Of a stretch of DNA of 39,870 nucleotides, positions 12,263 through 36,632 are shown piece after piece. The stretch covers positions 1 through 39,870 of the forward strand of contig JANWXU010000026.1 of NCBI GenBank assembly GCA_025057395.1. The letters run 5' to 3'. The position numbers and the translations under genes are program-made. Positions within the stretch are counted from its first letter, which is position 1; each line of letters begins with the position of its first letter. The notes under the pieces were generated by a model. That model had not been told where the DNA came from. It searched no databases and saw only the letters and a program-made list of their open reading frames with translations. The stretch is from Bacteroidia bacterium (GTDB taxonomy: Bacteria > Bacteroidota > Bacteroidia > J057 > JANWXU01).

Positions 12263-12297
12263 TTTGAAATGTTTTTTATTTGAAATATTTATATTTA
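12263..12297 (+). promoter_or_regulatory. Candidate promoter of nuoE
   Basis: TTTG at 12263-12266 precedes TATATTTA at 12290-12297 by 23 bases; the second matches TAnnTTTG at seven of eight positions. It sits after the preceding terminator and 30 bases before the chosen nuoE start. The same TATATTT core recurs before several other genes here. The spacing is at the long end, so confidence is modest. Confidence 0.35.
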
Positions 12298-12327
12298 CCT
12301 AATCATAAACTACTTTTTATATATACT

Positions 12328-12897: not shown

Positions 12898-12899
12898 GA

Positions 12900-14015: not shown

Positions 14016-14088
14016 CTAAGTACTGAATTTATCTTTATTTATCTTCGTAATTCGCGGTGCACTCCCGTAATTATCCTATCATATTGAT

Positions 14089-14120
14089 TTTGGAATATAT
14101 TTGTAACCAATTTAACTTTT
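14089..14120 (+). promoter_or_regulatory. Candidate promoter(s) of nuoF
   Basis: Two overlapping candidates occur in the 143-base gap. TATATTTG at 14096-14103 is a full match to TAnnTTTG but has no TTTG at the right distance upstream. Alternatively TTTG at 14089-14092 is followed after 20 bases by TAACTTTT at 14113-14120, a seven-of-eight match. Either would give a leader of about 35-55 bases. Confidence 0.4.
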
Positions 14121-14158
14121 TTCTTGTTTTTATTGTAAATAATAAATAGATTTTCCTT

Positions 14159-15448: not shown

Positions 15449-15491
15449 ATTTAGTTAACTTTTTCAATCCTTCGTCTAATTTTATTGCACT

Positions 15492-18245: not shown

Positions 18246-18255
18246 TATAACTAAT

Positions 18256-19524: not shown

Positions 19525-19553
19525 TTCTATATTTACGTCTAATGTTTGAAGCA

Positions 19554-19600
19554 AAGAAAGGATGAGAAAAATATTTCTTCTCATCCTTTCTTATTTTTAT
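19554..19600 (+). terminator. Rho-independent terminator after sucB
   Basis: A perfect 15-bp stem pairs 19554-19568 (AAGAAAGGATGAGAA) with 19578-19592 (TTCTCATCCTTTCTT) around a 9-base loop and is followed by ATTTTTAT. It lies 30 bases after the sucB stop and closes the sucAB transcript. Confidence 0.92.
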
Positions 19601-19613
19601 TACCTAAGTTTTA

Positions 19614-19647
19614 TTTGTATAAATTATATCCAAAGTTTTTATATTTA
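19614..19647 (+). promoter_or_regulatory. Candidate promoter of the alpha-2-macroglobulin gene
   Basis: TTTG at 19614-19617 is followed after 22 bases by TATATTTA at 19640-19647, a seven-of-eight match to TAnnTTTG. It lies just after the sucB terminator and 40 bases before the start codon, so a promoter is required about here. Confidence 0.42.
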
Positions 19648-19687
19648 TAGAATAGCTATCTATTTCTTCAAATAAATTACAGTTAAC

Positions 19688-22600
19688 ATGGTGCGCCTAC
19701 TTTCTCACTTAATAGTGTTGTTTTTAGCTTGGTTTTTCCTAACTACTTGTGGGTTACAAAGGACAGCTATTCGCAAAACGAATTTCGAAGAAGAAATTGA
19801 TCTTTTTCAGAATTTAACTTTTGATTTTAATCGTCCTATGGTTTCGACTGCTGAGTTAGGCAAGTGGGATACTACTCCTTACTTACATTTTAAGCCCCAA
19901 GTACCAGGACGCTTTCAATGGGCTTCTCCTACGAAATTGATTTTTTCGCCTGCCTATGGTTTTGAAGCAAGTACTTTATACGAGGCTCAAGTGAATAGTG
20001 CAGCATTTAAACGCATAGAGCCCAAATATCCTATTGAAGAGCAGATATTTACCTTTCATACACCCTACCTGCAGCCCTTGGCAGTATATCCTTTTTGGTA
20101 CGAAGAAAATAATACTTTTCGTGTAGGCGCCAAGATAGTATTTAATTATTTAGTAGAACCGTTCCGGCTGCAACCCCTTGTTACTCTGCAGTTAGGCAAA
20201 GATAGGTATAAATCTGTAGCTCTTAGTCAAAGCTCAGCCAAGGCGATAGATTTAGTTTTTCCCAACGTTACCCTTAGTGGAGAAGAGAGTGTAATGCTTA
20301 ACTTTGTTATTGCTGCAGGCTTAGAGTGTAAAGGAAGTAATTTCCGCACCCCAGAACCCTTTCATTTTAGTTTACCTTTAGAAGTAAGCAGGCGAGTGGT
20401 GATTTATGAAGCTATAGTAGAGCCTACAGAAAATGGTGAAATGCAGATTAACGTGATTGCTTCTCAAGCTCTTAGAGAAGATTCAAAAAATATCCAATTA
20501 TTAGAAAAGCCCTACTCAGCTTATTACTATTACTACGATTCTACTTTTGTTCCGATAAATATACACCCTACTCCCACAGGCGCTCTAATTACTGTATCAT
20601 TACAACCCAATTTAGACTATGAACTTCTTATCCGAAAAGGAACCCAGGGAATAATAGGAGAAGTTGCAGAATTATTTTCAGTACCTATTCAAGCAGGTCC
20701 TGCTCTTCCTTCTATTACTTTTACAGACCCTAATGCAAAAGTGCTTAGTAGCCAAGGGAGTAGGAGTATAAGCATAAAAATTAGTGGGGTGGACGAATTT
20801 AACGTAAGAATTGCTAAAATTTATGAAAATAACCTTTTGCAATTTTTGAAGCGTGGTTTAACATGGGGATACTACTGGGATAACATTACTTATCGTTCTT
20901 TTGAATATGTCGAATGGGATATAGAAGGGTTAGGAGATGTTGTTTATGAAAAAGTTTATCACCTGAGCGACTTGCCTAAAGTGGCTAATTCGCAAGAGCG
21001 TATTTTGGAAATTGATGAGTTGGAGAAAAATAAACAATACAGGGGAATATATATAATACAAGTAGTAGCAAAAGACCAATACTGGATTCGCGCTACTAAA
21101 GAGTTGGTTTTAAGCGATATCGGGCTTATTGCTCATAAGGGTAAGACTAAATTGTGGATCTCAGCACAGTCGCTACTCACTGCTTTACCTATTCCAGGGG
21201 TTAAAATTCAGCTTATTAGTACTAACAATCAAATTATAGGTTCAGCTACAACAAAAGCTGATGGAATTGCTATTATGCCTTTGCCAGATAGTGCTACTAC
21301 AGGCTTTCATCCTGCCCTTATAACTGCCTCTTTTGAGAGGGAATTAAGTTACCTCGATTTGACTAAAAACCGGGTAGAAACATCCCGCTTCCCTGTAGAA
21401 GGAAAATTTTTAGTTCACCCCGAATATGATGCTTATATCTATGGAGATAGAACAATCTATCGTCCTGGAGAAAAAGTAAATATAAATATTTTGTGTCGTA
21501 CCCATCAAAGACAAACACCCGTACATTTACCCTTAGAACTTAAAGTGTATGCACCGGGTAGTAAACTCCTTCAGCAGTTGAAATTTCAACTGAATTCAGA
21601 GGGGGCTTATTGCCTGGAATTCGAATTGCCCTCCACAGCAATTACTGGCCAGTATAACATGGAACTTTCTACCCCAAGTGGAAAATTACTTCAAACCTAT
21701 AGTATTTTAGTAGAGGAATTTACTCCAGATAAAATAAAATTAAACGTAAACTTAGGAAAAAAGCAATATAACGTAGGAGATAAAGTGGAAGCTAAGATTC
21801 AAGCAGATTATTTTTGGGGCGGAGCTGCTTCGGGTACCAAAGTGGAAGCTGAACTACAAATAGTGCAGCAGCCGCTAGTAAGTAAAAGTTATTCTAATTA
21901 TCACTTTCGACTAGAAAAAAGCTTTCCATCTTCTCCTATTCAAACCCAAACTTTCACAGATGAGCAAGGTAACGCTACTCTACATTGGAACCTAGACCCT
22001 TCTCTGAAGAACCAGGGACTTTTACAAGGAAAAATTTATACTACATTATTTGATGAATCTGGAAATTTTGTCTCGCAATTCCAAACATTTGATATTTTTT
22101 CACAGGAGTACTTTTTAGGAATTCGAAAAACAGACTATTATTTTTCTACAGGTAAAAATATTCCCTTCTCGCTAGTAGCGGTTAATGGTTACGGAGAACG
22201 ATATTCCTATACAGCGTGGGCAAATATTAAGATTTTATATTATGAGTGGGAAAACGCATTAGAAAGGGTAGAAGGAAATTTACAATATATTGCTAAAGCC
22301 AAAACTAAAGTACTACAAGAAAAGCTAGTAGCTCTTCAAAAAGGAGAGGGAGTAATCGAATTCAATCCTATTATGCCAGGGGAGTATGAATTACGTTTAT
22401 ATGTACCGGGTGCGGAAAATTATGTAAGTTATAAATTTTACGCTTATGGATTTAGTACTTTTGCCACAGCTTCCTTTGCTTTACAAAAAGAGGGGAATAT
22501 AGAAATGGTTGCCAATAAAAGATCTTATCGAGTAGGGGAAGTTGCAAATATTTTAATCAAGGCTCCTTTTGATGGAATCTTAAAGGTTTGCTTGGCAACA

Positions 22601-25138
22601 GAAGAAATTTTAGATATTCGCACTCTAGAAGTAAAAAACAATGTAGCTGAATTTCGAGTCTCTATTGCCTCTCAACATTTACCTAATGTATATGTTCTTG
22701 CTACTCTTATTCGTCCAGTGGAAGTTCAGGCTGCTTACCCTTTAATAGTAGCTAATGGTATCATAAGCCTCAAGGTAGAAGACCCGTTACTAAAATTACC
22801 AGTTACCATTATAGCACCTAAAACATCACGTTCTCAGTGTCAAATAACGGTGCAAGTACAAACTGAACCAGGTGCAGAGGTTACATTGGCATGCGTAGAC
22901 GAAGGAATCCTACAATTAATAGGCCTAGAGCCTCCTAGCGCTTATAATTATTTCTATGCTAAAAAGGCCCTACAAGTAGATTCTTATCATTTTTATGGCT
23001 TGTTATTACCTGAGCTGGGCAAAAAGAGATTAAAAAGTACAGGTGGAAGTTCTATGAGTGAAAGTTCTTTAGCACGTAGGCAAAATCCTTTTGGAAATTA
23101 CAAAAAACCCATTGCTTTTTGGTTCCCTGCTCAAAAAGCTAATGCTAATGGATTAGTCACTTTCGCCTTTACTCTTCCCCAGTTTGCAGGAAGCCTGCGA
23201 TGTATGGCTATAGCTTATCGTGGACAAAAGATGGGCGATGCTTCTCATTCTATTACTGTAGTAGATCCGTTAGTTCTAAATCTTAATAGTCCTGAATTTC
23301 TGTCGCCGGCTGATACACTGGTGTTATCGGTAATTTGTCAAAACACTCTAAATACGGCTGCCCAATATGCTATACAGATAAAAGTATCTTCTCCTCTAAA
23401 ACTAATTGGCAATAGCAGACAATATATTCACTTACAGCCCAAGGGGCGGCAACCACTTACGTTTCAATTGGTAGCTCAAAGCGTGGGTAAGGGTAATATA
23501 GAAGTTTTAGCTACAGGAAATAATACTAATTTCCGGGTGGAGGCACCTATTTCTATTCGCCCCCCTTATCCATTAACTTACGAGACGGGAAGTGGTTATA
23601 TTGCTGCTGGTGAGAAGTTAAATCTTTCATTTTCTACTTCTTGGATGTTATCTGACTATCAATTAGTAGTTTCCCCCTCGCCACTTGCTCAAGGTTATAG
23701 TTTTTTGCGCTCCCTTATTCGTTATCCTTATGGTTGTTTAGAGCAAACAGTGGCAATGGCTTTTCCACAAATTTACTGTTTGCAAGGAAAAGAAAATAGT
23801 TTAATAGATGCCTCACTTGCTAGAAAAAATGTTAGTGCAGCTATCAATAAAATTTTAGCCTTACAGTTGAGTGATGGATCATTAGCTTTTTGGCAGGGAG
23901 GAGAAGCAGCATCTCCCTGGGCACAGGTTTTTGCTGCTCACTTTTTAACGGAAGCAAAGAAAGCAGGATTTTATGTTCCAGAGGTTGCACTAGATAAATT
24001 ACTACGTTACCTGGAATCATATGCTAGCCAGATGCCTGAGGTTAAGATAGAAAAAACTGAAAACGGTAAAAATGGTGGAAAGTATACTTACCTTAGCCGA
24101 GCCTCAGTGTATGCCCTTTGGGTGTTAGCGGAAAATGGTAAAAAGCCCTTATCTCTGCTAACTCGATATAGAGAAAAACGAAATTTTCTAAGGCCTGAGA
24201 GCCAGGTAGTATTAGCTTGTACTTATGGTTTGCTTGGCGATAAAAAAAGCTTTCAAGCACTTTTACCTAAGCCCATTGTATTTACTACTGTTAAGCGAGA
24301 GTGGGGGCAAGATTTTGCTTCTCCCCTTCGGGAGAGGTCTTTTGTATATTATGTTTTGGTATCGGTAGAGCCTTTTAATTCTCAATATTTACAGGCAGTA
24401 AGGCAGCTAGCTAAAAATTTGCAGCAAGAAAAATTTTTGAATACTCAGGAAGCAGTATTTGGTTTTTTAGCTATACTCAAACTGGCTAATCAGGAAGCTA
24501 TTAATACGCAGGCACAGGCACAAATTATAACGGGTAATAAAACTTATTCATATTCTGGTAAGGAGCTTAAATTATCTGCTGCTCAGCTTGGTGATAAGGC
24601 TCAAATAGTAACCGCTGGTAAAGGAGGGATTTATTATTATTGGGAAAAAAGTGGTATTCCGTCCCAGCAAGAACCCTTAGCTGCCTTGAAAGAAGAAAAA
24701 GGAATTCGTATCGAACGACAGTATTTTAATAAAAACGGACAGATAATAAAAGGAAATCAGTTTGTACAAAATGAACTGGTAATAGTACAATTAAAAGTGC
24801 AAACTATTTTGGCGCAGTCTATTGATAATGTAGTAATAACGGATCTTATTCCTGCAGGTTTTCAATTAGAAAATCCTAGAGTTCGTCTTTCTAGTAGTTT
24901 AAACTGGCTAGTGGAAAATCAAAAAATTCAACATCGGGATTTTCGTGCAGATAGGGTGCACTTTTTCCTTTCAACCTTAGAGAATACTGCTGAGGTATAC
25001 TACGCAATGCGGGCTACTCAGAGTGGGATTTTTACTCAAGGTGCAGCAAGCGTAGAAGCTATGTATGACCCTGCTTTTTATTCTCAAACTTCTATTAATA
25101 AGGTTAAAATTACTACCTATTCGCCTAAAGCATTGTAA
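19688..25138 (+). CDS. Bacterial alpha-2-macroglobulin family lipoprotein with CLEQ thioester
   Basis: The 1816-residue protein belongs to the bacterial alpha-2-macroglobulins, thought to trap attacking proteases in or on the envelope. The N terminus is a lipoprotein-type signal (LIVLFLAWFFLTTC, Cys21), although Thr at -1 is not the preferred lipobox residue. An MG2-type domain lies near residue 580-680 (IYGDRTIYRPGEKVNI). The A2M signature is near 1137-1230 (KPIAFWFPAQ ... LRCMAIAYRGQKMGDAS). The thioester motif is Cys1350-Leu-Glu-Gln1353 in PYGCLEQTVAMAFPQ, followed by an alpha-helical thioester domain. A C-terminal macroglobulin-like domain contains VITDLIPAGFQLENPR. Length is in the range of E. 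coli YfhM (1653). The usual partner gene pbpC is not adjacent; downstream folB converges with a 13-base gap. Confidence 0.93.
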   Translation: MVRLLSHLIVLFLAWFFLTTCGLQRTAIRKTNFEEEIDLFQNLTFDFNRPMVSTAELGKWDTTPYLHFKPQVPGRFQWASPTKLIFSPAYGFEASTLYEAQVNSAAFKRIEPKYPIEEQIFTFHTPYLQPLAVYPFWYEENNTFRVGAKIVFNYLVEPFRLQPLVTLQLGKDRYKSVALSQSSAKAIDLVFPNVTLSGEESVMLNFVIAAGLECKGSNFRTPEPFHFSLPLEVSRRVVIYEAIVEPTENGEMQINVIASQALREDSKNIQLLEKPYSAYYYYYDSTFVPINIHPTPTGALITVSLQPNLDYELLIRKGTQGIIGEVAELFSVPIQAGPALPSITFTDPNAKVLSSQGSRSISIKISGVDEFNVRIAKIYENNLLQFLKRGLTWGYYWDNITYRSFEYVEWDIEGLGDVVYEKVYHLSDLPKVANSQERILEIDELEKNKQYRGIYIIQVVAKDQYWIRATKELVLSDIGLIAHKGKTKLWISAQSLLTALPIPGVKIQLISTNNQIIGSATTKADGIAIMPLPDSATTGFHPALITASFERELSYLDLTKNRVETSRFPVEGKFLVHPEYDAYIYGDRTIYRPGEKVNINILCRTHQRQTPVHLPLELKVYAPGSKLLQQLKFQLNSEGAYCLEFELPSTAITGQYNMELSTPSGKLLQTYSILVEEFTPDKIKLNVNLGKKQYNVGDKVEAKIQADYFWGGAASGTKVEAELQIVQQPLVSKSYSNYHFRLEKSFPSSPIQTQTFTDEQGNATLHWNLDPSLKNQGLLQGKIYTTLFDESGNFVSQFQTFDIFSQEYFLGIRKTDYYFSTGKNIPFSLVAVNGYGERYSYTAWANIKILYYEWENALERVEGNLQYIAKAKTKVLQEKLVALQKGEGVIEFNPIMPGEYELRLYVPGAENYVSYKFYAYGFSTFATASFALQKEGNIEMVANKRSYRVGEVANILIKAPFDGILKVCLATEEILDIRTLEVKNNVAEFRVSIASQHLPNVYVLATLIRPVEVQAAYPLIVANGIISLKVEDPLLKLPVTIIAPKTSRSQCQITVQVQTEPGAEVTLACVDEGILQLIGLEPPSAYNYFYAKKALQVDSYHFYGLLLPELGKKRLKSTGGSSMSESSLARRQNPFGNYKKPIAFWFPAQKANANGLVTFAFTLPQFAGSLRCMAIAYRGQKMGDASHSITVVDPLVLNLNSPEFLSPADTLVLSVICQNTLNTAAQYAIQIKVSSPLKLIGNSRQYIHLQPKGRQPLTFQLVAQSVGKGNIEVLATGNNTNFRVEAPISIRPPYPLTYETGSGYIAAGEKLNLSFSTSWMLSDYQLVVSPSPLAQGYSFLRSLIRYPYGCLEQTVAMAFPQIYCLQGKENSLIDASLARKNVSAAINKILALQLSDGSLAFWQGGEAASPWAQVFAAHFLTEAKKAGFYVPEVALDKLLRYLESYASQMPEVKIEKTENGKNGGKYTYLSRASVYALWVLAENGKKPLSLLTRYREKRNFLRPESQVVLACTYGLLGDKKSFQALLPKPIVFTTVKREWGQDFASPLRERSFVYYVLVSVEPFNSQYLQAVRQLAKNLQQEKFLNTQEAVFGFLAILKLANQEAINTQAQAQIITGNKTYSYSGKELKLSAAQLGDKAQIVTAGKGGIYYYWEKSGIPSQQEPLAALKEEKGIRIERQYFNKNGQIIKGNQFVQNELVIVQLKVQTILAQSIDNVVITDLIPAGFQLENPRVRLSSSLNWLVENQKIQHRDFRADRVHFFLSTLENTAEVYYAMRATQSGIFTQGAASVEAMYDPAFYSQTSINKVKITTYSPKAL

Positions 25139-25151
25139 TAAAACTGTAATA

Positions 25152-25487
25152 CTAATACTGTTGTATTCTTCGAATAGCAGCATATTTGCAGATTCCGTTA
25201 ATAGGGGGTAAATGTTTGCGCACTTCGATGGTTATCCTGTAGATTTGTGGATAATGACTTTTTATACAGTTACAAATTTTTTGTGAAAGTTCTTCTAGGG
25301 TAGATACTGCGTTACTGTTCATTTCTTGAGCCACTAATTGATATAATTGTGAATAATCAACCAAAGAAGAGGGGTTTTTTATAGCTACCCTTAAATGAAC
25401 CGTGAATTTATTACCTAGCTTTTTTTCTTCGGGGTACATGCCATGAAAGGCATAAAATTCCATTTCTTCTAATATAATCTCTAGCAT
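25152..25487 (-). CDS. folB: Dihydroneopterin aldolase
   Basis: The 111-residue product fits FolB, which cleaves 7,8-dihydroneopterin to 6-hydroxymethyl-7,8-dihydropterin and glycolaldehyde in folate synthesis. Family features are MEFYAFHGMYPEEKKLGNKF at the N terminus (with the conserved HG and the Glu after the Pro), SLVDYSQLYQLV, LEELSQKICNCI, and VRKHLPPINGICKYAAIRR with the catalytic Lys near the C terminus. I start at the ATG at 25487 (MLEIILEEM), because the in-frame TTG at 25532 would add 15 residues with no family match. It is the only minus-strand gene, convergent with the alpha-2-macroglobulin gene and divergent from nuoD across 129 bases. Confidence 0.92.
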   Translation of the reverse strand: MLEIILEEMEFYAFHGMYPEEKKLGNKFTVHLRVAIKNPSSLVDYSQLYQLVAQEMNSNAVSTLEELSQKICNCIKSHYPQIYRITIEVRKHLPPINGICKYAAIRRIQQY

Positions 25488-25559
25488 GTTTTCTTTGAAG
25501 AGGGAAGCTAATGCTTTCCACCGTTTTTGCAATTATATTAAATTTATTTTTAACAAAAG

Positions 25560-25588
25560 TTGTTTTTCAAGTATAATTTCTATATTTA
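25560..25588 (+). promoter_or_regulatory. Candidate promoter of nuoD in the folB-nuoD divergent gap
   Basis: TTG at 25560-25562 is followed after 18 bases by TATATTTA at 25581-25588, one mismatch from TAnnTTTG; the nuoD start is 28 bases further. The folB promoter should read the other way from the same gap, but I see no convincing match for it. Confidence 0.42.
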
Positions 25589-25616
25589 AGGGTTACAAAA
25601 GCAGTAGAAATTTCAT

Positions 25617-26921
25617 ATGGAAACTTTAGAAAAGAAAGTTACAAGAATTGAAGATAAAGTAAACCCTACTTTTTTCCCCAAGCACCAATTAGCCCTTTAC
25701 CGCCGACTAGAGACCAAGCATGCTAGGGTGGAAGTGGATGAATCCGACCCCTTAGGAAGTCAAATGATCCTTAATATTGGGCCACAACATCCGGCTACAC
25801 ACGGTGTTTTAAGGGTAGTTACGCAATTGGATGGAGAAAAGATAGCCAAGTGTGTGTTGGATATAGGGTATTTGCACCGAGGTATTGAAAAACTAGCTGA
25901 GTATAAAACTTTTCAGGAATTTATGCCTTATACTGATAGAATGGATTATCTTTCTCCCTATTCTAATAACGTAGCTTTATGTACCGCCGTGGAAAAAATT
26001 TGTCAAATTGAGGTTCCCGAAAGAGCTCAATATATCCGTACTATTGCTTGCGAACTAGCTAGAATTTCTGCCCACTTGCTTTGGATAGGCACTATGGTAA
26101 TGGATGCAGGAGCAATTAGTATGTTTATGTATGCCTTTCGTGAAAGAGAGAATTTATATACTATTTTTGATAAACTTACAGGAGTACGTTTTACTGTTAG
26201 CCATTGTCGCATTGGGGGGGTTCAATTTGATATTACCGACGAGGTAATTTCTATGATCCGCAATTTTATCAAGAATTTTAGAAAGGAATTGGCAGGCTGG
26301 AAGAAATTTTTGAATCGGAATGCCATTTGGCTCAACCGTAATATTGGTATTGGAGTAGTTACTAAAGAAGAGGCTATTGCTTATGGGTTCACGGGGCCTA
26401 ATCTTCGAGCAAGTGGTGTTCCGCATGATATTCGTATTTTTGAGCCCTACTTAGTTTATGACCAATTGGATTTTGATATTCCTATTCGTACGGAGGGAGA
26501 TTGTTTGGCGCGCTATTTTGTTCGGCTGGAAGAAATGGAACAAAGCACTCGTATTGTAGAGCAGTGTCTAAATAAGTTACCTAAAGGACCTATTCGTACA
26601 GATGATGCTAAAAAAGCCTATCCTTCTAAAGAGGAAGTATATTATTCAATGGAAGGAATGATTCATGATTTTATGATGACAGACGTAGGAGTCTGCCCCC
26701 CAAAGGGGGCTGAAGCTTACCACGCAATTGAGGCTCCCAAAGGGGAATTGGGAATATATATTTACTCCGACGGAACAGGAATACCCTGGCGCCTTAAATT
26801 TAAAACTCCCTCTTTTAGTAACTTACAAGTGCTGGAGCGAATGATGGAAGGTTCCATGGTAGCAGATACAGTAGTACTTATTGGCTCTATTGATCCTGTA
26901 ATGGGCGAAGCAGATAAGTAA
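25617..26921 (+). CDS. nuoD: NADH-quinone oxidoreductase subunit D (49 kDa)
   Basis: The 434-residue protein is the complex I subunit that forms the quinone-binding pocket together with NuoB. Clear family motifs are NIGPQHPATHGVLRVV, with the quinone-pocket His residues, DIGYLHRGIEKLAEYKTFQE, PYTDRMDYLSPYSNN, RTIACELARISAHLLWIGT, TGPNLRASGVPHDIR and the C-terminal IGSIDPVMGEADK. It is a separate polypeptide and is not fused to NuoC. Other nuo genes are not adjacent: nuoE and nuoF lie more than 10 kb upstream, and the next gene downstream is a giant surface protein. The N-terminal 40 residues are divergent and slightly longer than in short homologs, but the ATG at 25617 is the only suitable start. 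Confidence 0.97.
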   Translation: METLEKKVTRIEDKVNPTFFPKHQLALYRRLETKHARVEVDESDPLGSQMILNIGPQHPATHGVLRVVTQLDGEKIAKCVLDIGYLHRGIEKLAEYKTFQEFMPYTDRMDYLSPYSNNVALCTAVEKICQIEVPERAQYIRTIACELARISAHLLWIGTMVMDAGAISMFMYAFRERENLYTIFDKLTGVRFTVSHCRIGGVQFDITDEVISMIRNFIKNFRKELAGWKKFLNRNAIWLNRNIGIGVVTKEEAIAYGFTGPNLRASGVPHDIRIFEPYLVYDQLDFDIPIRTEGDCLARYFVRLEEMEQSTRIVEQCLNKLPKGPIRTDDAKKAYPSKEEVYYSMEGMIHDFMMTDVGVCPPKGAEAYHAIEAPKGELGIYIYSDGTGIPWRLKFKTPSFSNLQVLERMMEGSMVADTVVLIGSIDPVMGEADK

Positions 26922-27134: not shown

Positions 27135-30100
27135 ATGCCGTTGTTAGGTCTACTACTTTACTTATTGTTTCTACCCACAAGCTCTTCCTTTTCTCAAATT
27201 CGTGTATTTCAAGATAAAACCCCTGAGCAGTTGGTACGGGATATTTTTTTAGGTAATGGTGTAAGGGTGTTTAATATTCGGTATAGCGGCGCAGACTCAG
27301 CAATAGGCTACTATTTGCGTGACCCTTCAGCTCCTAATCTAATTTTTGCTAAGGGAATTATTCTTTCCACAGGCAATGCAAAACATGCAGAAGGACCTAA
27401 TACTAATTATAACCATACTGATTCTATTCCGGGCGCTAGTACCATAAACGGTATGCCCCAAGATCCTCTCCTTTCTGCCATTGTAGGGGATTCTACTCGT
27501 GATGCTGCTATTTTAGAATTTGATTTTATTCCTACTTCAGATACTATTCGTTTTAACTATATTTTTGCTTCCGAAGAATATACAGAGTACGTAGACTGGA
27601 ATTTTAATGACATCTTTGCTTTCTTTATTTCTGGGCCCGGCATTGCAGGAGTACGCAATATCGCTTTATTGCCTGGTACTCAAACACCCGTGACCATAAA
27701 AAACGTAAACCATATTACTAACTCACAATATTATGTAGATAATGAATATAATGGGCCTAATAATCCTGCTCCATTTGATCTTGAATATGATGGATTTACG
27801 TTTGATGTTCGTAATAATCGAGCTTTAACAGCTATTGCATATATTCCTGAGCCCTGTCAGGTATACCACTTGCGTATCTCTATTGCTGATGTTTATGATG
27901 GTGAGTGGGACTCTGCTGTTTTACTAGAAGCCAATAGTCTTACTTCTGCTACTTATGTTGCTTCTGCTACTCCAGGTATTATGGGAAGAAGAGATTCTGC
28001 CATTACCTATGAGGCTTGTAATGGAGATATTACTTTAACTTTTGAACGCCCCTATGCAATAGGGGCGGAAAATATTCCTCTTACCCTAGCAGGAACCGCT
28101 AGGAATGGTGTGGACTATACTCTTTCCCGAACTTACATTCAGTTCTTGCCAGGAGTAACTAGAGACCAAATTACAGTGCATGCTTTATTGGATGCTGAAA
28201 ATGAGGGAATAGAGTCGGTTCATGTGATTTTTCGGTCTCGCTTAATGTGTGAGCCTGAAACTCTGACTTTTTATATTAGTGATGCTCCTACCAGAATTCT
28301 TGTTTCGCCTTCACCAGATACTGCCTTTTGTTTTGTTTCAGGAGGGAGACGTCTTACTTATACGGCGCTAGTGCCTCCTGCATTTCAGAATTTTAATTAT
28401 GAGTGGCGTGTTCCTCCTAATTTAATTTTAGGAGTGGGAAGTACATTTTCTTTTACTGCTAATAGAGATACTACGCTACAGGTAGTTGCTCGAGATAGAG
28501 TTTGCAATCTTCCCCCCCTGCAAAAGACTATTAGAGTAAAAGTATATTATGCAGACCGTACTTTACGCCTCAGTTTAGTGGATACAATTCTTTGTTCAAA
28601 TAGAAATTTCACTTTAACTCCCCGCATAATTCAAAGTGAGAATTTACCGCTTCAATATCAATGGCAGGATGGAACTACGCAAAGAGAAAAAAATATATTT
28701 GTTGTACAGGATACCTTTTTTCGCTTGCAAGTGCAGGATATGTGCAGTACGGCGCATGCGGTGGCTCGTTTAAGAGTAGCGCGCATTAGTATTCCTAATG
28801 ATACAGTGGTTTGTCAAGGTGCTACTCTTACGTTATGGGCGCGTTTATTTCCTTCTAATCTTTCAGCTAATTTTCACTGGCTGGATATATCCAATACTGT
28901 TCTAGGCAATACTACTCCTATTTTTATTCGTGCTTCTACTGATAATCGTTATTCAATTCGTTTTGCTACTCCTTACGAATGTTTAAACCGAAGTTTTGGC
29001 GTAAGAACTCTTCCTGCTTTAACTGTTGTTTTTCCACAAGATACACAAGTATGTGCAGGCCAAAATTTTACTCGTAAAGTGCAAGCTAGAGGAGGAGATA
29101 ATCAAACTTTTATCTACGAATGGTATCTACTTAATAATCCTATTACTCCTATTCACACAGGACCTATTTTTTCATATCAATTAAGTCAGGACCAAGCTTT
29201 TTTGGTAAAGGTTAGCTCCCCTATTTGCAACACGCAGGAACAATGGCCTTTTTATGTTCGTGTAATTCCACCTAATTTTACTCTTTCTCCTATTCAAGCG
29301 TTGGTTAGACTACCCACTTGTCCTAACCGTTGGGTGCCGCTTCGAGTAACAGCTAGAGGTGGGAGTGGTAATTATAGTTATCGTTGGGATAGTAATCCTG
29401 CCTTTAATACCGATACATATACTCCATGGATTACCCAAACAAGAGAGGTAGAGGTAGAGGCCACAGATAATTGCATGGTACAAAAGCAAAAGAAAACGCT
29501 TACAGCTTTTAGTAATATTGAGGTAAGAGCTCAAAATTTAAATCTTTGTTCTGGGCAAGTAGTTACTTTACAACCTATTATAACGGGCGGCTGTGGAGTC
29601 CATACAGTCTCTTGGTTTGATGAGCGCCAAAATTTAATAGCTATTTCTGATATTTTAAGTCTGCTTCCCCAAACAGACCGCAGGGTGATAGTGAAAGTTA
29701 CCGATACCTGTGGAAGTACAGCATCAGATACTTTTAGAATTACGGTAGCTTCTCCCCTTCGGGTAATTAATCGTTTGCCACGTGATACAACCCTTTGTGT
29801 AGGTCAGCCTTTGCAATATACTGTACAAGTAGCGGGAGCAGGTCCTATTCGTTATGTTTGGCAAGATAGTGCAAGTGGGCAGATTTTAAGTAACGAAGCC
29901 TCTCTTGTTTTTCAACCCTTGCGGGGTAAAAATGTTTTATACTTGACTATCTCGGATACTTGCTCCACTCTTACCCAAACGTATTATGTTCATGCGGCAC
30001 CTCGTGATTTGAGGTGGGAGGCCATTTTAGGAGCTTCAGATACGATTCTCTGTATTAATTCTCTAGTCAAATTAAAGGCTTATGTAAGTGGGGGAAGTGG

Positions 30101-33100
30101 TAATTATCGCTTCAATTGGAGCACAGGTTCAAGTAGAGATTCTGTGCAATTTGTTTTAACGGATACCACCACTATTACCCTTACAGTTACAGATGGCTGC
30201 TCTCGCCTAGATACCACCTTGCGATTCTATACTTTAGACGTTACTTACAGCATAGAAGCTTCAGGCGGTATTTATAATAACCCCCAGTATCCGATGGTAT
30301 TTAAATCTTGTAATGAATATATCAAAATCATTTTTCGACGCTCTGCGGATATAGGGGAGCAGAAGTTTCGAATTTATTTTGAACCAGTATCTTTTCCTAT
30401 CTCACCTGCTATTGAAGGTTATGATTTTACTATAAATCGAGATACTGTACATTTTCGAGCAGGGTCTTTAATGGACACCCTACTATTAAGCGCTCTTATG
30501 AATCCTGATTTAGCTCCTTTAAAGACAGTACGCTTAATATTTGAGCCAAGTAATTGTCAGCGTCTTAAGCAGGAGGTTTATATTTTACCGCCCGATACTT
30601 CGGGAATAGCTATTGAAACTAATCTAAATCCTAATAATATATGCGTTCGTCCGGGTGGTACGCCGCTAATAATAGTTGCTTCTGCATTTGGCGGTAGTAA
30701 CATTGCTCGTTACGAATGGCGTAATCGCAAAGGTGAATTAATAGCCAGCGGAAGTAGAGTTAATTTTTCTATTTTGAGTGATACTGTTTTTTATGTAACA
30801 GCTATCGATACAAGTTGTGCTCTTCCTGCCCAAAGAGACTCTGTAAAAGTTAGAGTACTAAATCCAGGTCCACGTTTTCTCTCACTTACTCTAAAAGACA
30901 CAATTGTTTGTCCAAGAAGTACAATACCTATTTTAGCGGTAGTAAATGGCGAAACTCTTCCTATTAATATTGTTTGGAGTAATGGTACTTCAGGGAATAG
31001 AGCTAATTATACTATTCTTTCTGATACCACTATTTGGGCAAGAGCCACGGATCGCTGTTTCCGAGTAGTAGATACAGCGAAAATATATTTAGCTAAACTG
31101 AAAACCACAAGAGATACGACTGTTTGTTTTGGTGAGTCCTTGGTACTACAAGCTCAATTCGAGCCTAATTTATCATTGGCATTGCCTATTCAATGGTATT
31201 CTGCTGATAACCAACTTTTGCACGTAGGTTCACGTTTTCAATCAACAGCTATTCAAACTACTTATTACATTATAAGAGTGCCAGAGTTGCCCTGTATTGA
31301 AGACACAATAAACATCAATGTTCTTCCTTCAATAGAGCTATCAGTGGCTGCTCCACCAGCTATATGCCAAGGCAATACAATCACTCTTAATGCTCAAGGT
31401 AGGGGGGGAGACGGTAATTTTATCTGGCAATGGAAAGAGCTGGATACTCAAAATATATTAAGTACAGCTTCTTCGCTTACCTTATCTCCCACTCGAACAA
31501 CTCGATTATCTGTAGAATTAAAGAATTTGCGGTGTAGCGTTATCCAGTCTGATACTCTTACGATAGTGGTATATCCACGTACTCTTAGTATAGATTCTCT
31601 TTTACCTATTACTTCTTTTCCACTTTGCCCTAGCGATACCTTGCGTATTAGAGCTTATGTGAGCGGCGGAAGTGGAAAATATACTTACCGCTGGAATGTA
31701 GGGCAACAAATAGATGAGCGTACTATTGCCCTAGTAGTAGCTGAAACTACGCGGGTAACTGTGACTGTGGAAGATAGCTGCCAAAGACTACAAAGTAGTA
31801 TTGATGTTTGGCCCTACCCTGAACCTAGAGTTCAGCTAAAGGATACTACTGTATGCTCAGGAAGACCTATAACTTTATTGTCTCAAATTGTAGGAGGAGA
31901 TGGAAATCATCGCTTTACTTGGCAAAATGAAGAGAATATTATATTAGGTACAGAATCTCAATTAAATTATATTCCTTCTAAAGAGGAGACGATTCGTGTG
32001 ACTATAACTGATGGTTGCAATCGTACTACTTGGGCTCAAAGTAAAATTTCTCTTTTTCCTACTTTTTCTCATAATTTGGCTACGTTGCGCGATACCACTC
32101 TTTGCTTAGGTCAATCGGTTACTTATGTCGCTCACGCAAGAGGAGGAGGAAATATTTATTTTCAATGGGTAGATAGTGCTAGCGGAAATTTACTTTCTAA
32201 AACGCCAGGAATTAGTCTTACCCCTACTAATAATACTACACTTTTAGTGACTATAAGTGATACCTGTGAGGTAGTAACAAAAGCAATTAAAGTACGAGTA
32301 ATACCTCCTACTCTTAGTTGGCAGGAGGTTTCACTTACTCCACCTGCCCAAGTAGTTTGTCCAAATTCCGAGGTGACAATTACCGTGGTAGCAAAGGGTG
32401 GAAGTGGGAATTACTCATACTTATGGGATAATAATAGCCGGGGTTCAACACAAAAATTTAGAATTACGCATTCTCCTTTTTGGGTAAAAGTTCAGGCTCA
32501 AGATGGATGTAATGCAATTGATTCTCTCTTAGAATTTCGTACCTTTTCGCCTTTAGTGTTAGAGCCGCTTTTAGATACTGTAGTTTGTGCGGGTACTAGT
32601 TTACAGTATGCTGCTATAGTGCAAGGGGGCGGGGGAAACTATTCTTTCGTGTGGCAGGATAGCGCTAGTAGCCAAGTGTATTCCAGGCAGCCTACTTTAT
32701 TTTTAAGGCCTACTCAGAGTCAAACGATACAACTTACAGTTCAAGATTCTTGTGGTCAGCGGCAAACGGTTTATGCTAAAGTTAAAGTAAAGCCTACGCC
32801 TACTGTAGAATTAATTCCAGATACCTCGATTTGTGCAGGGCAATGTGTACAACTTTCGGCTGCTATAAGTCCGGCGGGGGCTAATTTTCGGTGGAGTCCC
32901 TCTAGCTTCTTAGATGACCCTCTAGCCACAAGGCCCATTGCATGTCCTCAGAGAAGTATAACCTATACCCTAAATGCTTTTTGGGAAGATTGTTATGCTT
33001 CTCCCGCTGTTGTAAGGGTAGAGGTAAATTCTCCACCTACAGTACGAATAGTTCAAGCTCCTGCGCCTATATGTCGAGGTGATACTACCAATATTATAGC

Positions 33101-35282
33101 CAGTGTTGTAGGTAGTTCAACTTCTTACCGAGTTTTATGGCAACCTACCTTGGGTTTAGATGATTCTATGGCGATAAGAGTTCGGGTCTCGCCTCCCCAA
33201 ACAACAGGTTATACTCTTAGGGTAGTAGATGTCAAAGGATGTACTTCTAATACTGTTCAAACTCGTGTTTTAGTACATCCTTTACCGATTGCTGATGCAG
33301 GGCCTGATCTAATCTTTTGTGAAGGGGAAAATGGTGTTCAGCTCAAAGGTAAGGGCAGGGGCGGAAATACGAGCCATTATCGTTATGAATGGAGCCCTCC
33401 ATTAGGGTTAAATAATCCCTATTTGGCAGAGCCATGGGCTTTCCCTAATACGCCTACTGCTGTTTATACTTTAACTGTAGTAAGTATACCCTATGGCTGC
33501 AAAAGTCAGAATCGCGATACGCTAAGTACTGTAATAGTTCGAAAAAATCCTCGACCGGTTGCCGATGCAGGAGGTAATGTGGAGGTGTGCTTTGGGAAAA
33601 GTGTTTTAATTGGTACACCGGCGCAAGCAGGATATACATATCACTGGACGCCTACTTTAGGCTTGACAGACCCAACCATAGCACAGCCAGGCGCTTCACC
33701 TTCTTATACCACTACTTACTATTTACATGTAACTGCAAATGGTTGCCAAAGTACTGCAGATTCTGTTATTGTAAAAGTGAATCGTTTACCTACGGTGCAA
33801 GTTCAGTCTACACCTAGTATTTGTCGTGGTGATAGTATTGTACTTTCTGCTATAGTAAGTGGTGATGGACCTTTTACATATTTTTGGCAGCCTTCTGAAG
33901 GTTTAGATAATCCTAATTTTCCTACTCCTAAGGCTAGCCCTAGTCAAAGTACTACCTATTCTTTAACTGTAAGTAGCCAGGCAGGATGTCAAAATCAGGT
34001 GCCAGCAAGGACTTATTTGGAAGTAATACCCCCCCCTATTATTGCAGCTGATTCTACGAGTAAAGGCCAGGTGGTTATAGAAGCAGGGGGCTCGATAGTT
34101 TTACCAGCTAAAGTTAAGGCTTACAATCCTATTATTCGGTGGGAGCCGCAGCTAGGCTTGAATAAGTTTGATATTGTACAGCCAGTCGCAAGCCCGCCTA
34201 CTTCAATTACTTATACTTTAAATGTGTATACTTCCGCCTGTAAGGCAAAAGATAGTATTCGGGTAGTAGTGGTACGGCCGCTTAAGCTAAAATCAAATTT
34301 AGAAGATACAGTAGTTTGTAAAGGAAGCTTTGTCTTATTAAGAACTTTTGTTAATAAACCAATTGAGCGTGTAGAGTGGCGTCCTACTCTAGGTTTATCT
34401 AATCCTAACAGTTTAGATACTTGGGCTACACCCCTGGAAACTACTACATATACTGTTGCTGTAACAGCCGACGGCGTAACTAAGGAAAGATATTTTAGGA
34501 TTCGTGTTTTACCCCAGCCTAAAGCTAAATTTAGTATGAGCTACCCGCAGGGGTGTAATCGCCTAGCAATAAAGTTTAATAATCTTTCAGAAGACGCTAT
34601 TTTTTATCGTTGGTATTTTGGAGATGGTGCACCCGTAAGCAATGAAGTACATCCTAAGCATATTTATCAACAAAAGGGTAGCTATCAAGTAAAGCTTTGG
34701 GCTATGGGTCAGGGAGGTTGCCAGGATTCTACTACAGCGAATGCCGAAGCTTATATAGTCGACTCTTTGGCAATTTGGGTACGAAGTTTGCCTGCAGCTC
34801 CAGCGCAGCTTATTGTTCCTGAAAGTCAGGTTTATTTTGAGGGGGGGAGTAATGTTGCAGCGGCTCGCTGGCTTTGGCAAGTAGGAGACGGCACTACTTA
34901 TAATACTGCTACTTTTTACCACCGCTTTTTAACACCTGGTAGTTTCTATGTTACAGTGGTGGCAGAAGATAATTGGGGATGTAAGATCAGTAACGTACTA
35001 GGACCTTATATTGTCACTAATTTACCTATTGAAATTCCTAATATTTTTACTCCTAACGGAGATGGAATAAATGATTCCTGGCAAGTTTTATATTATGGTT
35101 CAGAGAGAATTATAGTAGAGGTTTTTGATAGAAATGGAGAGCTTGTCTTTTCAGCAAATGATAGTTTAACTCCATGGGATGGTAATACTAAAAGAGGAGA
35201 GCCGGCACCGCCAGGTATTTATTTTTACCGTATTAAAATTGGTAAACAAGAATACAAGGGAACTATTACTCTTTTGCGTTAG
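27135..35282 (+). CDS. Giant choice-of-anchor L / Ig-repeat surface protein with gliding-type (CHU_C, T9SS type B) tail
   Basis: The 2715-residue protein begins with a signal peptide (MPLLGLLLYLLFLPTSSSFS). A choice-of-anchor L domain follows at about residues 25-270 (FNYIFASEEYTEYVDWNFND, FAFFISGPGIAG). Two tandem blocks of about 765 residues come next (273-1035 and 1036-1806), each with one Calx-beta-like and eight Ig-like modules. Then come one more Ig-like module, seven modules with WxPTLGLxxP signatures, two PKD-like domains from about 2468 (YRWYFGDGAPVSNEVHPKHI), and the C-terminal gliding-associated domain from about 2632 (IPNIFTPNGDGINDSWQ, PWDGNTKRGEPAPPG, YFYRIKIGKQEYKGTITL). This tail directs secretion by the T9SS (type B). 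An adhesin or gliding-related surface role is inferred. No enzyme domain is visible. Confidence 0.93.
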   Translation: MPLLGLLLYLLFLPTSSSFSQIRVFQDKTPEQLVRDIFLGNGVRVFNIRYSGADSAIGYYLRDPSAPNLIFAKGIILSTGNAKHAEGPNTNYNHTDSIPGASTINGMPQDPLLSAIVGDSTRDAAILEFDFIPTSDTIRFNYIFASEEYTEYVDWNFNDIFAFFISGPGIAGVRNIALLPGTQTPVTIKNVNHITNSQYYVDNEYNGPNNPAPFDLEYDGFTFDVRNNRALTAIAYIPEPCQVYHLRISIADVYDGEWDSAVLLEANSLTSATYVASATPGIMGRRDSAITYEACNGDITLTFERPYAIGAENIPLTLAGTARNGVDYTLSRTYIQFLPGVTRDQITVHALLDAENEGIESVHVIFRSRLMCEPETLTFYISDAPTRILVSPSPDTAFCFVSGGRRLTYTALVPPAFQNFNYEWRVPPNLILGVGSTFSFTANRDTTLQVVARDRVCNLPPLQKTIRVKVYYADRTLRLSLVDTILCSNRNFTLTPRIIQSENLPLQYQWQDGTTQREKNIFVVQDTFFRLQVQDMCSTAHAVARLRVARISIPNDTVVCQGATLTLWARLFPSNLSANFHWLDISNTVLGNTTPIFIRASTDNRYSIRFATPYECLNRSFGVRTLPALTVVFPQDTQVCAGQNFTRKVQARGGDNQTFIYEWYLLNNPITPIHTGPIFSYQLSQDQAFLVKVSSPICNTQEQWPFYVRVIPPNFTLSPIQALVRLPTCPNRWVPLRVTARGGSGNYSYRWDSNPAFNTDTYTPWITQTREVEVEATDNCMVQKQKKTLTAFSNIEVRAQNLNLCSGQVVTLQPIITGGCGVHTVSWFDERQNLIAISDILSLLPQTDRRVIVKVTDTCGSTASDTFRITVASPLRVINRLPRDTTLCVGQPLQYTVQVAGAGPIRYVWQDSASGQILSNEASLVFQPLRGKNVLYLTISDTCSTLTQTYYVHAAPRDLRWEAILGASDTILCINSLVKLKAYVSGGSGNYRFNWSTGSSRDSVQFVLTDTTTITLTVTDGCSRLDTTLRFYTLDVTYSIEASGGIYNNPQYPMVFKSCNEYIKIIFRRSADIGEQKFRIYFEPVSFPISPAIEGYDFTINRDTVHFRAGSLMDTLLLSALMNPDLAPLKTVRLIFEPSNCQRLKQEVYILPPDTSGIAIETNLNPNNICVRPGGTPLIIVASAFGGSNIARYEWRNRKGELIASGSRVNFSILSDTVFYVTAIDTSCALPAQRDSVKVRVLNPGPRFLSLTLKDTIVCPRSTIPILAVVNGETLPINIVWSNGTSGNRANYTILSDTTIWARATDRCFRVVDTAKIYLAKLKTTRDTTVCFGESLVLQAQFEPNLSLALPIQWYSADNQLLHVGSRFQSTAIQTTYYIIRVPELPCIEDTININVLPSIELSVAAPPAICQGNTITLNAQGRGGDGNFIWQWKELDTQNILSTASSLTLSPTRTTRLSVELKNLRCSVIQSDTLTIVVYPRTLSIDSLLPITSFPLCPSDTLRIRAYVSGGSGKYTYRWNVGQQIDERTIALVVAETTRVTVTVEDSCQRLQSSIDVWPYPEPRVQLKDTTVCSGRPITLLSQIVGGDGNHRFTWQNEENIILGTESQLNYIPSKEETIRVTITDGCNRTTWAQSKISLFPTFSHNLATLRDTTLCLGQSVTYVAHARGGGNIYFQWVDSASGNLLSKTPGISLTPTNNTTLLVTISDTCEVVTKAIKVRVIPPTLSWQEVSLTPPAQVVCPNSEVTITVVAKGGSGNYSYLWDNNSRGSTQKFRITHSPFWVKVQAQDGCNAIDSLLEFRTFSPLVLEPLLDTVVCAGTSLQYAAIVQGGGGNYSFVWQDSASSQVYSRQPTLFLRPTQSQTIQLTVQDSCGQRQTVYAKVKVKPTPTVELIPDTSICAGQCVQLSAAISPAGANFRWSPSSFLDDPLATRPIACPQRSITYTLNAFWEDCYASPAVVRVEVNSPPTVRIVQAPAPICRGDTTNIIASVVGSSTSYRVLWQPTLGLDDSMAIRVRVSPPQTTGYTLRVVDVKGCTSNTVQTRVLVHPLPIADAGPDLIFCEGENGVQLKGKGRGGNTSHYRYEWSPPLGLNNPYLAEPWAFPNTPTAVYTLTVVSIPYGCKSQNRDTLSTVIVRKNPRPVADAGGNVEVCFGKSVLIGTPAQAGYTYHWTPTLGLTDPTIAQPGASPSYTTTYYLHVTANGCQSTADSVIVKVNRLPTVQVQSTPSICRGDSIVLSAIVSGDGPFTYFWQPSEGLDNPNFPTPKASPSQSTTYSLTVSSQAGCQNQVPARTYLEVIPPPIIAADSTSKGQVVIEAGGSIVLPAKVKAYNPIIRWEPQLGLNKFDIVQPVASPPTSITYTLNVYTSACKAKDSIRVVVVRPLKLKSNLEDTVVCKGSFVLLRTFVNKPIERVEWRPTLGLSNPNSLDTWATPLETTTYTVAVTADGVTKERYFRIRVLPQPKAKFSMSYPQGCNRLAIKFNNLSEDAIFYRWYFGDGAPVSNEVHPKHIYQQKGSYQVKLWAMGQGGCQDSTTANAEAYIVDSLAIWVRSLPAAPAQLIVPESQVYFEGGSNVAAARWLWQVGDGTTYNTATFYHRFLTPGSFYVTVVAEDNWGCKISNVLGPYIVTNLPIEIPNIFTPNGDGINDSWQVLYYGSERIIVEVFDRNGELVFSANDSLTPWDGNTKRGEPAPPGIYFYRIKIGKQEYKGTITLLR
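27207..27945 (+). other. Choice-of-anchor L domain coding segment
   Basis: The segment encodes TPEQLVRDIFLGNGV near its start, GIILSTGNAKHAEGPN, then FNYIFASEEYTEYVDWNFND and FAFFISGPGIAGVRNIALLP, and ends near IADVYDGEWDSAVLLEA. This order matches choice-of-anchor L domains, which sit at the N terminus of secreted Bacteroidota proteins carrying varied C-terminal anchors. Confidence 0.82.
27951..30240 (+). repeat. Internal superrepeat, copy A (about 763 residues)
   Basis: The block contains a Calx-beta-like module (EACNGDITLTFERPYAIGAE ... NGVDYTLSRTYIQFLPGVTR) followed by eight Ig-like modules in fixed order. The fifth carries GGSGNYSYRW, the seventh WQDSASGQ and the eighth GGSGNYRFNW. The same order recurs immediately downstream in copy B. 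Confidence 0.75.
30241..32550 (+). repeat. Internal superrepeat, copy B (about 770 residues)
   Basis: The block opens with a second Calx-beta-like module (SCNEYIKIIFRRSADIGEQ ... EGYDFTINRDTVHFRAGSL) and repeats the eight Ig-like modules. The fifth has GGSGKYTYRW, the seventh WVDSASGN and the eighth GGSGNYSYLW, matching copy A in order and type. The copies are well diverged, so the duplication is old. Confidence 0.75.
32818..34520 (+). repeat. Array of seven WxPTLGL-type Ig-like modules
   Basis: Seven modules of about 80 residues share ICxGxxxxL near the start, W-x-P-x-x-G-L-x-[DN] in the middle (WQPTLGLDD, WSPPLGLNN, WTPTLGLTD, WQPSEGLDN, WEPQLGLNK, WRPTLGLSN, and WSPSSFLDD in the first), then AxPxxTTTYTLTV and usually a Cys. 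They form a different class from the superrepeat modules before them. Confidence 0.75.
35029..35279 (+). other. Gliding motility-associated C-terminal (CHU_C, T9SS type B) sorting domain segment
   Basis: The segment encodes IEIPNIFTPNGDGINDSWQV, then EVFDRNGELVF, then PWDGNTKRGEPAPPGIYFYR and KGTITLLR. The FTPNGDGxND opening and the PPGxYFYxI ending define the CHU_C/type B sorting domain. Confidence 0.92.
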
Positions 35283-35351: not shown

Positions 35352-35375
35352 TGATAAATCAATTTGAAAAGCAGA

Positions 35376-36632
35376 ATGCGTAGAATTATCATATTAGTAG
35401 CATTTTTAGTATCTGCTCTTTTTACTAAAGCTGACTACTTGTTAATACCCATGGATAAACTCCAAACCGATCACCTTAAAGCATATGGTGTAGCGTACTG
35501 GGTATTAGCGCAGGGCGTAGAGGTAGATTGGTTATTGAATTATAGAGGTGGTAGCTTTGCCTTTCGATATGCAAAATCTTTTGTGGATTTGATGCTAGAG
35601 AGGGGCGTTCGTTATGAAGTAATTTCTGATAGTAAGTACAATCAAATTTTGGCTTTGTTAGCATCCGAAAGTAATAATATGGATGCTGTAAAGTTAGAAA
35701 AGGCGCCTAAGATAGCCGTATATTCTCCTAAGTCGAATCAGCCGTGGGACGATGCTGTAACATTAGTATTAACTTACGCTGAGATACCCTATGACGTGTT
35801 GTATGACGAAGAGGTATACCGCGATTCTTTGAGGAAGTACGACTGGCTGCATTTGCATCATGAAGATTTTACAGGCCAATATGGCAAATTTTATGCAAGT
35901 TACCATACGCAGGCTTGGTATAAGGAGCAGGTGAAAGAAAATGAAGATATTGCTGCGAGGTTAGGCTTTAGTAAGGTATCAAAATTAAAATTAGCAGTAG
36001 CCCAAAAAATTCGTGACTTTTGCTATAACGGGGGCTTTCTCTTTGCAATGTGTTCTGCTACAGATTCTTACGATATTGCTTTGGCTGCCGAAAATACGGA
36101 TATATGTGATGTAATGTACGATGGAGACCCTATTGACCCTGATTGCCAGCAAAAATTAGATTATAATAAGTGCTTTGCTTTTCATAATTTCACGCTAGAG
36201 CTAAATCCTTATGTATACGAGTATTCCGATATTGATGTGACCAATACTCGTAATATTCCTCAAGATATGGACTACTTTCACTTGTTTGAATTCTCTGCAA
36301 AGTGGGATCCCGTGCCTACCATGCTTTGTCAAAATCATGAAAATAAAATCAAGGGCTTTATGGGGCAGACTACAGCGTTTCGAAAGTCTTTGATAAAGAA
36401 AGACGTACTAATCATGGGAGAGTTAAAAGCAGCAGATGAAGCACGTTATATTCATGGAAATTACGGACGGGGAATGTGGACTTTCTATGGAGGTCATGAC
36501 CCTGAGGACTATCAGCATTTTGTACATGAGCCTCCCACAGACTTAAGTCTTCATAAAAATAGTGCAGGTTATCGTTTGATATTAAATAATATTTTGTTTC
36601 CTGCAGCTAGAAAGAAAAAACAAAAAACTTGA
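35376..36632 (+). CDS. Exported protein of the family annotated 'asparagine synthetase B' in Bacteroidota; function unknown
   Basis: The 418-residue product has a signal peptide (MRRIIILVAFLVSALFTKA) and ends in FPAARKKKQKT. I recognise it as a family found across Bacteroidota that databases often label asparagine synthetase B. It has neither the N-terminal Cys glutaminase domain nor the SGGxDS ATP-pyrophosphatase motif of AsnB, and it is exported, so that name is probably wrong. Visible conserved-looking segments are QPWDDAVTLVLTYAEIPYD, LHLHHEDFTGQYGKFY (His159-Asp164), GGFLFAMCSATDS with Cys226, PTMLCQNH, and FYGGHDPEDYQH with His374. The Cys226 segment resembles the nucleophile turn of glutamine-amidotransferase-like folds, which is inference only. 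I chose the ATG at 35376 over a TTG at 35364 because it starts the signal peptide cleanly. The next gene follows after 27 bases. Confidence 0.85.
   Translation: MRRIIILVAFLVSALFTKADYLLIPMDKLQTDHLKAYGVAYWVLAQGVEVDWLLNYRGGSFAFRYAKSFVDLMLERGVRYEVISDSKYNQILALLASESNNMDAVKLEKAPKIAVYSPKSNQPWDDAVTLVLTYAEIPYDVLYDEEVYRDSLRKYDWLHLHHEDFTGQYGKFYASYHTQAWYKEQVKENEDIAARLGFSKVSKLKLAVAQKIRDFCYNGGFLFAMCSATDSYDIALAAENTDICDVMYDGDPIDPDCQQKLDYNKCFAFHNFTLELNPYVYEYSDIDVTNTRNIPQDMDYFHLFEFSAKWDPVPTMLCQNHENKIKGFMGQTTAFRKSLIKKDVLIMGELKAADEARYIHGNYGRGMWTFYGGHDPEDYQHFVHEPPTDLSLHKNSAGYRLILNNILFPAARKKKQKT

Follow-up and report, generated by a model that had tools for sequence, protein, structure and literature searches.

Tandem duplication of a nine-module Calx-beta and Ig block in a giant choice-of-anchor-L surface protein of a Bacteroidia bacterium

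Background

Choice-of-anchor-L (anchL, NF038133) proteins of Bacteroidota that are sorted by the type IX secretion system (T9SS) as type B cargo share a recognizable layout, namely, a signal peptide, the anchL domain, a Calx-beta module directly after it, an array of immunoglobulin-like (Ig) and PKD modules, and a C-terminal CHU_C domain; our literature search turned up no paper mentioning the anchL domain by name. In the species that have been studied, PorP-like proteins retain type B T9SS cargo at the cell surface (PMC9143113). Here we describe P0001, a giant protein that has all of these parts and that is encoded in a 39,870-nucleotide stretch of DNA (the window) from a Bacteroidia bacterium (assembly GCA_025057395.1, contig JANWXU010000026.1, positions 1 to 39,870, forward strand). 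In P0001, a block made of one Calx-beta module and eight Ig-like modules occurs twice in tandem (blocks A and B). A survey of 24 proteomes found that duplication of several domains at once is commoner than duplication of single domains, Ig domains being mostly added one at a time (PMC1553488).

Results

The two blocks correspond module by module

P0001 is the product of a 2715-residue open reading frame (ORF) and consists, in order, of a signal peptide (assigned by reading the sequence), the anchL domain, block A, block B, ten further Ig or PKD modules (C1-C10) and a type B T9SS sorting domain. It scores far above the family cut-off for choice-of-anchor-L (NF038133, 236.2 bits against 27), and its C-terminus matches both the type B sorting domain (TIGR04131, 56.2 bits against a cut-off of 35) and PF13585 (67.3 bits against 27).

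A BLASTP comparison of the two blocks returned a single colinear match (positions 1-761 of A against 2-768 of B, 26% identity, E-value 1e-95). Since any two generic Ig arrays could give such a match, we tested the order of the modules. Pairing the eight Ig modules of A with those of B in order ranked seventh among all 40320 possible orders. The in-order module alignment scored 707; when module order was shuffled 300 times, the scores averaged 343 and never exceeded 574. The mean similarity between modules across A1 to C1 was 15.3 at an offset of nine modules and did not exceed 8.0 at the remaining offsets between 1 and 13. The heading modules A1 and B1 and their counterpart P1 in a paralogue (next section) form one clade (support 100/99.9) in a tree of 90 Calx modules. 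The colinear match, the Calx-beta module that heads each copy and the existence of a one-block paralogue of otherwise the same layout thus support a block duplication, and we conclude that the nine-module tandem duplication is real and beyond chance. This bears out the initial annotation, which had proposed two copies of about 763 and 770 residues; these lengths are right, the proposed boundaries need a shift of one base to keep the reading frame, and A and B align end to end in register. No recent repeat at the DNA level was found in the blocks by Tandem Repeats Finder.

The sequence landmarks from which the duplication had been read fared less uniformly. CN-xx-I, GGSG[NK]Y[ST]YRW, W[QV]DSASG and GGSGNY are all present, but GxDYT reads GYDFT in block B, and the specificity of two had been overstated, W[QV]DSAS being found in C1 as well and GGSG-Y marking a module class that recurs inside each block. 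It had also been held that a tree in which the A modules group with one another would speak against the duplication. Our module tree is poorly resolved, yet it pairs A2 with B2, A3 with P3 and B4 with P4 across blocks; modules 3, 6 and 9 form a class of their own.

A one-block paralogue in the same genome

On another contig of the same genome we found a 1957-residue paralogue (G000:C211, hereafter C211) that matches P0001 module for module through the anchor-L domain, one nine-module block (block P), C1-C10 and the sorting domain, and has exactly one block fewer. Modules C2-C8 of P0001 and their C211 counterparts form one clade (support 99/98). With its single block in the same layout, C211 shows the nine modules to be a genuine unit of insertion, and it is the strongest evidence that they were inserted or lost together.

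These data also bear on the view that there was no block duplication at all, the Ig modules having been added singly and the register being a by-product of Ig similarity and of a three-module period (see below). Ig domains do mostly expand singly in the surveyed proteomes (PMC1553488), and the trees do not keep modules 6 and 9 apart. However, the second Calx lies exactly nine modules after the first, the similarity at offset 9 is about twice that at any other offset, 3, 6 and 12 included, and there is the one-block paralogue with otherwise the same layout. The offset-9 similarity and the paralogue already refute this view for practical purposes, and we give it almost no weight.

The second Calx module has lost most conserved acidic residues

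Scanned with the Pfam Calx-beta family (PF03160), A1 passes the cut-off and B1 does not; of the four modules scanned, A1 alone matched. B1 is nevertheless homologous to A1, as judged from their clade in the 90-module tree. A profile of the anchL+Calx family (62 sequences) matches the Calx-beta domains of NCX1 (E-value 4.4e-13), and Foldseek matches were to the Calx domains of NCX1, CALX and integrin beta4; both results support the identification as Calx.

Five positions are acidic in at least 94% of the 86 other Calx modules. All five are acidic in A1 and P1; in B1, four have been lost (K1057, N1123, A1127 and K1130) and D1097 is retained. Acidic residues usually bind calcium in Calx domains of the NCX1 type. 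Having lost most of them, B1 is probably no longer a Calx site of the calcium type and may serve as a spacer; more generally, standing apart from the anchor-L domain, it has probably lost whatever role these residues serve. The two copies are not equivalent. The single Calx module of C7, a third anchL paralogue described below, likewise lacks three of these conserved residues.

A three-Ig super-repeat in relatives

The third anchL paralogue, C7 (G000:C7:1790-10969; L012 1291-10530 -), has 3080 residues, one Calx and 28 Ig modules. Its modules that stand three apart are more alike than its other modules (0 of 5000 permutations, p<0.0002). The same period is stronger in L133 (G001:C50:1-8000), an anchL protein of the same order but a different family (contrast 7.1, 0 of 5000 permutations, p<0.0002); it is the strongest three-Ig period we observed, modules of the same phase being 7 z-units more alike. 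When the eight Ig modules of P0001 were compared with L133, the top scores fell at offsets 0, 3, 6, 9 and 12, and both blocks keep phase with both relatives (block A, p 0.03 against C7 and 0.018 against L133; block B, p 0.003 against C7 and 0.027 against L133). A Calx module followed by eight Ig modules appears, from this phase, to fill three triplets, with the Calx in the first slot.

No period of 2-9 modules reached p<=0.01 in 18 other giant Ig arrays tested, including that of P0002, the second giant protein of the window. The triplet was not seen in L135, nor, with p 0.08-0.31, in the block of C211 or in A or B taken singly.

Calx-led blocks in other anchor-L proteins

A search of order-level relatives with whole P0001 gave matches to its tail only (PKD/CHU_C), and neither anchL nor Calx was detected in the relatives so matched; the search for relatives was therefore seeded with the anchL+Calx head. 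In our first sample, the other Calx-bearing anchL ORFs have one Calx each, P0001 having two, nine modules apart. That P0001 is the only anchL protein with two Calx modules was true of that sample, and we dropped the idea after a wider scan, across 295 genomes from the class, which revealed at least two further anchL proteins that have multiple Calx modules, spaced more closely than in P0001. In L144, the anchor-L domain is followed by four Calx-Ig blocks that are 37-43% identical; in L145, it is followed by two Calx-Ig-Ig blocks that are 51% identical, and then by two more Ig modules. In both proteins the additional Calx copies retain the acidic residues, as judged by eye from the alignment.

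In L144, L145 and P0001 alike the repeated segment begins at the Calx module. Calx-led block growth is thus seen with units of 2, 3 and 9 modules, the unit of P0001 being the largest among the matches listed. The initial annotation had called block-wise growth uncommon. For domains in general this is not supported, although Ig domains mostly expand singly (PMC1553488), and in the anchL family Calx-led blocks of two and three modules are duplicated as well. Since relatives repeat shorter stretches in the same way, the duplication in P0001 is an old and larger instance of a recurring growth mode in a known family, and no new system. A bolder generalization would be that anchor-L surface proteins at large grow by amplifying Calx-led blocks, that this habit evolved repeatedly, and that the blocks are locked in phase with a three-module super-repeat mirroring the physical packing, or the superhelix period, of the Ig stalk; we put this forward tentatively, as a possibility that we think somewhat unlikely.

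Structural units smaller than nine modules

A Calx module follows the anchL domain in 89 of the 98 ORFs of our anchL sample, and an AlphaFold2 model of the anchL-Calx pair (62 sequences) reached a predicted local distance difference test (pLDDT) score of 91.9 and a predicted template modelling (pTM) score of 0.88. On both counts, the two domains belong together. The prediction for the nine-module block gave a pTM of 0.34, from a shallow alignment of three rows in which the Calx part was poorly modelled; this is weak evidence, yet it lends a nine-module unit no support. The earlier suggestion that the nine modules form a structural unit is therefore not borne out, the signals favouring the anchL-Calx pair and the Ig triplet instead.

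One might still hold that the nine modules were duplicated because they fold or work as a cooperative unit, as the duplication begins and ends at module boundaries. Against this stand not only the low block score, but also the pairing of the Calx with anchor-L, the smaller Calx-led blocks duplicated in relatives and the loss of conserved acidic residues in B1, and we regard such a unit as very doubtful.

Features and surroundings of the gene

Table 1. Positions of P0001 and its parts in the 39,870-nucleotide window
Feature	Residues	Position	Strand	Evidence
Choice-of-anchor-L surface protein gene with T9SS type B sorting domain (P0001)	1-2715	27135..35282	+	ORF; NF038133 and TIGR04131
choice_anch_L domain	33-269	27231..27941	+	NF038133, E 2.9e-70
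Block A: Calx-beta and eight Ig-like modules (A1-A9)	273-1035	27951..30239	+	BLASTP, module-order tests
A1: Calx-beta module of block A		27951..28289	+	Pfam Calx-beta, 27.5 bits against cut-off 27; anchL+Calx profile; conservation
Block B: Calx-beta and eight Ig-like modules (B1-B9)	1036-1805	30240..32549	+	BLASTP, module-order tests
B1: second Calx module		30240..30599	+	Conservation; clade with A1 and P1
C1: Ig module after block B, resembles modules 7 and 8; Ig9 position in triplet phase		32550..32795	+	
C2-C10: distinct Ig/PKD module class; C9-C10 are PKD		32796..35033	+	Tree
CHU_C / T9SS type B sorting domain	2634-2715	35034..35279	+	PF13585, E 1.3e-18; TIGR04131, E 2.8e-15

The neighbours of P0001 (Table 1) are housekeeping genes (nuo, carA, sucA, sucB, nuoD) and an alpha-2-macroglobulin gene. 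At 12280-26921, carA, sucA, sucB and the alpha-2-macroglobulin gene interrupt the nuo genes (nuoE-like, nuoF-like and nuoD); except for nuoD and the macroglobulin, these names were read from the sequence without a search. Directly behind the giant gene lies an ORF of 422 amino acids (35364-36632) that has no Pfam match at E 1e-4. P0002 occupies positions 1-9765, is cut off by the start of the contig and has at least 3254 amino acids; it combines Ig modules of two classes with an fn3 domain and a T9SS sorting domain of type A, and we found no period among its modules. The source genome (4.1 Mb) apparently holds many giant Ig-array ORFs, with open frames of up to 7941 amino acids.

Discussion

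Origin of the second block

The best explanation as a whole, and one that we consider rather probable, is an internal head-to-tail duplication followed by divergence, which would have given the protein a longer stalk. In an ancestor of the gene, a segment beginning with the Calx-beta module and ending with the eighth Ig module would have been copied head to tail, presumably by recombination, turning a one-block protein of about 1960 residues into a two-block protein of 2715. Measured in an older super-repeat of three modules, the segment would span three slots, and its insertion would thus have left the phase intact. The copies would then have diverged to 26-28% identity, and B1, away from its usual anchor-L partner, would have lost most of its conserved acidic residues and become a spacer rather than a site of the calcium type.

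The age of the event can be judged from C211. Blocks A and B are 27.6% identical, A and P 27.0%, and B and P 31.8%; the tail modules common to P0001 and C211 are 28-51% identical, and their anchor-L domains 51-56%. As the divergence between A and B is about that between A and P, and the shared tail is 28-51% identical, the blocks are probably about as old as the split of the paralogues, or older, and we lean towards a duplication before the split. In five-taxon trees of A, B and P with C7 and L133 as outgroups, the three blocks stand together in the three best topologies, the best tree being ((B,P),A); a tree of the Calx modules alone joins B1 with P1 (support 100/98). A possible mosaic nature of the C211 block (modules 1-3 like A, modules 4-9 like B; permutation p 0.012) was also considered and dropped, as the five-taxon trees of both halves favour the same topology.

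Several points weigh against our preferred explanation. The topology ((A,B),P) lies 1.7 log-likelihood units under the best tree and is not rejected by the approximately unbiased (AU) test (0.44), nor is (A1,B1) rejected in the AU test on the Calx modules (p 0.34). Both orders of the duplication and the paralogue split are thus compatible with the trees, and a fusion of diverged paralogues would give the same layout. Taken by itself, P0001 gives no more than a weak triplet signal (p 0.09), so that the reading of the block as three slots leans mainly on relatives. Finally, the genome has five PorP/SprF genes, and none of them is on the contig of the window.

Three histories fit these data: a duplication before the split with loss of a block in C211, a fusion of tandem paralogues, and a duplication specific to P0001 with fast divergence. 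In the last, which shares our best explanation with a narrower timing, the tandem duplication would follow the split from C211, both copies diverging fast. The small likelihood deficit of ((A,B),P) and the fact that A and B are nearest to each other at modules 2 and 8 speak for this timing, but B and P are the nearest pair overall, and A-B identity is below that of most other modules shared with C211, which should be older under such a history; we find it less than probable, although a serious contender. In the fusion history, two tandem paralogous genes were joined, the anchor-L and block A of the first to the second from its Calx on (block B and tail), so that the blocks diverged before joining and no internal duplication is required. 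Tandem anchL genes are indeed frequent in relatives (L057, L059, L081, L099, L113, L116, L122), the A-B identity is about that of A-P rather than above it, lies under that of B-P and falls at the low end of the C211 tail range, and both the best five-taxon tree and the Calx tree place B with P. However, no such tandem pair was seen in the source genome, where the anchL paralogues found are on other contigs; the N-terminal anchor-L domain matches that of C211 as well as expected for one gene lineage; and the Calx-starting blocks of other sizes in L144 and L145 are more simply explained by internal duplication. We consider a fusion unlikely, if still worth weighing.

A longer stalk

Under the internal duplication that we prefer, the anchor-L/Calx pair would sit at the far end of the Ig stalk, and the additional block would place it further from the cell. 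Most likely, the extra block lengthens the stalk of a T9SS-secreted protein displayed on the outer surface. By analogy with the species studied, a PorP/SprF-like protein would be expected to tether P0001, as type B cargo, to the outer membrane (PMC9143113), and the five PorP/SprF genes of the genome are in keeping with this.

One genome thus offers a clean pair of one-block and two-block paralogues for the question of how giant surface proteins of Bacteroidota lengthen, with the Calx as a marker module that labels the duplication event. Calx-led blocks of differing size suggest a shared mode of growth in a large and little-studied protein family. The results that we least expected were the degenerate second Calx module and the three-Ig super-repeat, the latter suggesting, in a form open to testing, that certain bacterial Ig stalks are built from repeats of more than one domain.

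Comparison with known systems

Among proteins of known structure, the grappling-hook protein GhpA of Aureispira sp. CCB-QB (cryo-electron microscopy structures, PDB 9flp and others) is the top fold match of block A and a clear sequence relative of the tail Ig modules of P0001 (E-value 5.9e-119); whole P0001 also matches it, best in the tail modules. The homology does not extend to the head of the protein, where the anchor-L and Calx domains have no GhpA match, and P0001 is therefore no GhpA orthologue.

Length variation in periscope proteins needs near-identical repeats. P0001 differs from them in this respect, since its copies are 26-28% identical and carry no DNA repeat, and its length cannot vary by simple slippage. 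The stalk length of periscope surface proteins follows the number of repeated modules (PMC8201768), and the same may hold for P0001. Nebulin, with its seven-domain unit (PMC1553488), is like P0001 in that the duplicated unit comprised several domains, lay in the interior of a repeat region and left an off-diagonal peak of similarity. Unlike in repeat proteins of the nebulin type, the unit in P0001 is heterogeneous (Calx and Ig) and old, and belongs to a bacterial T9SS protein.

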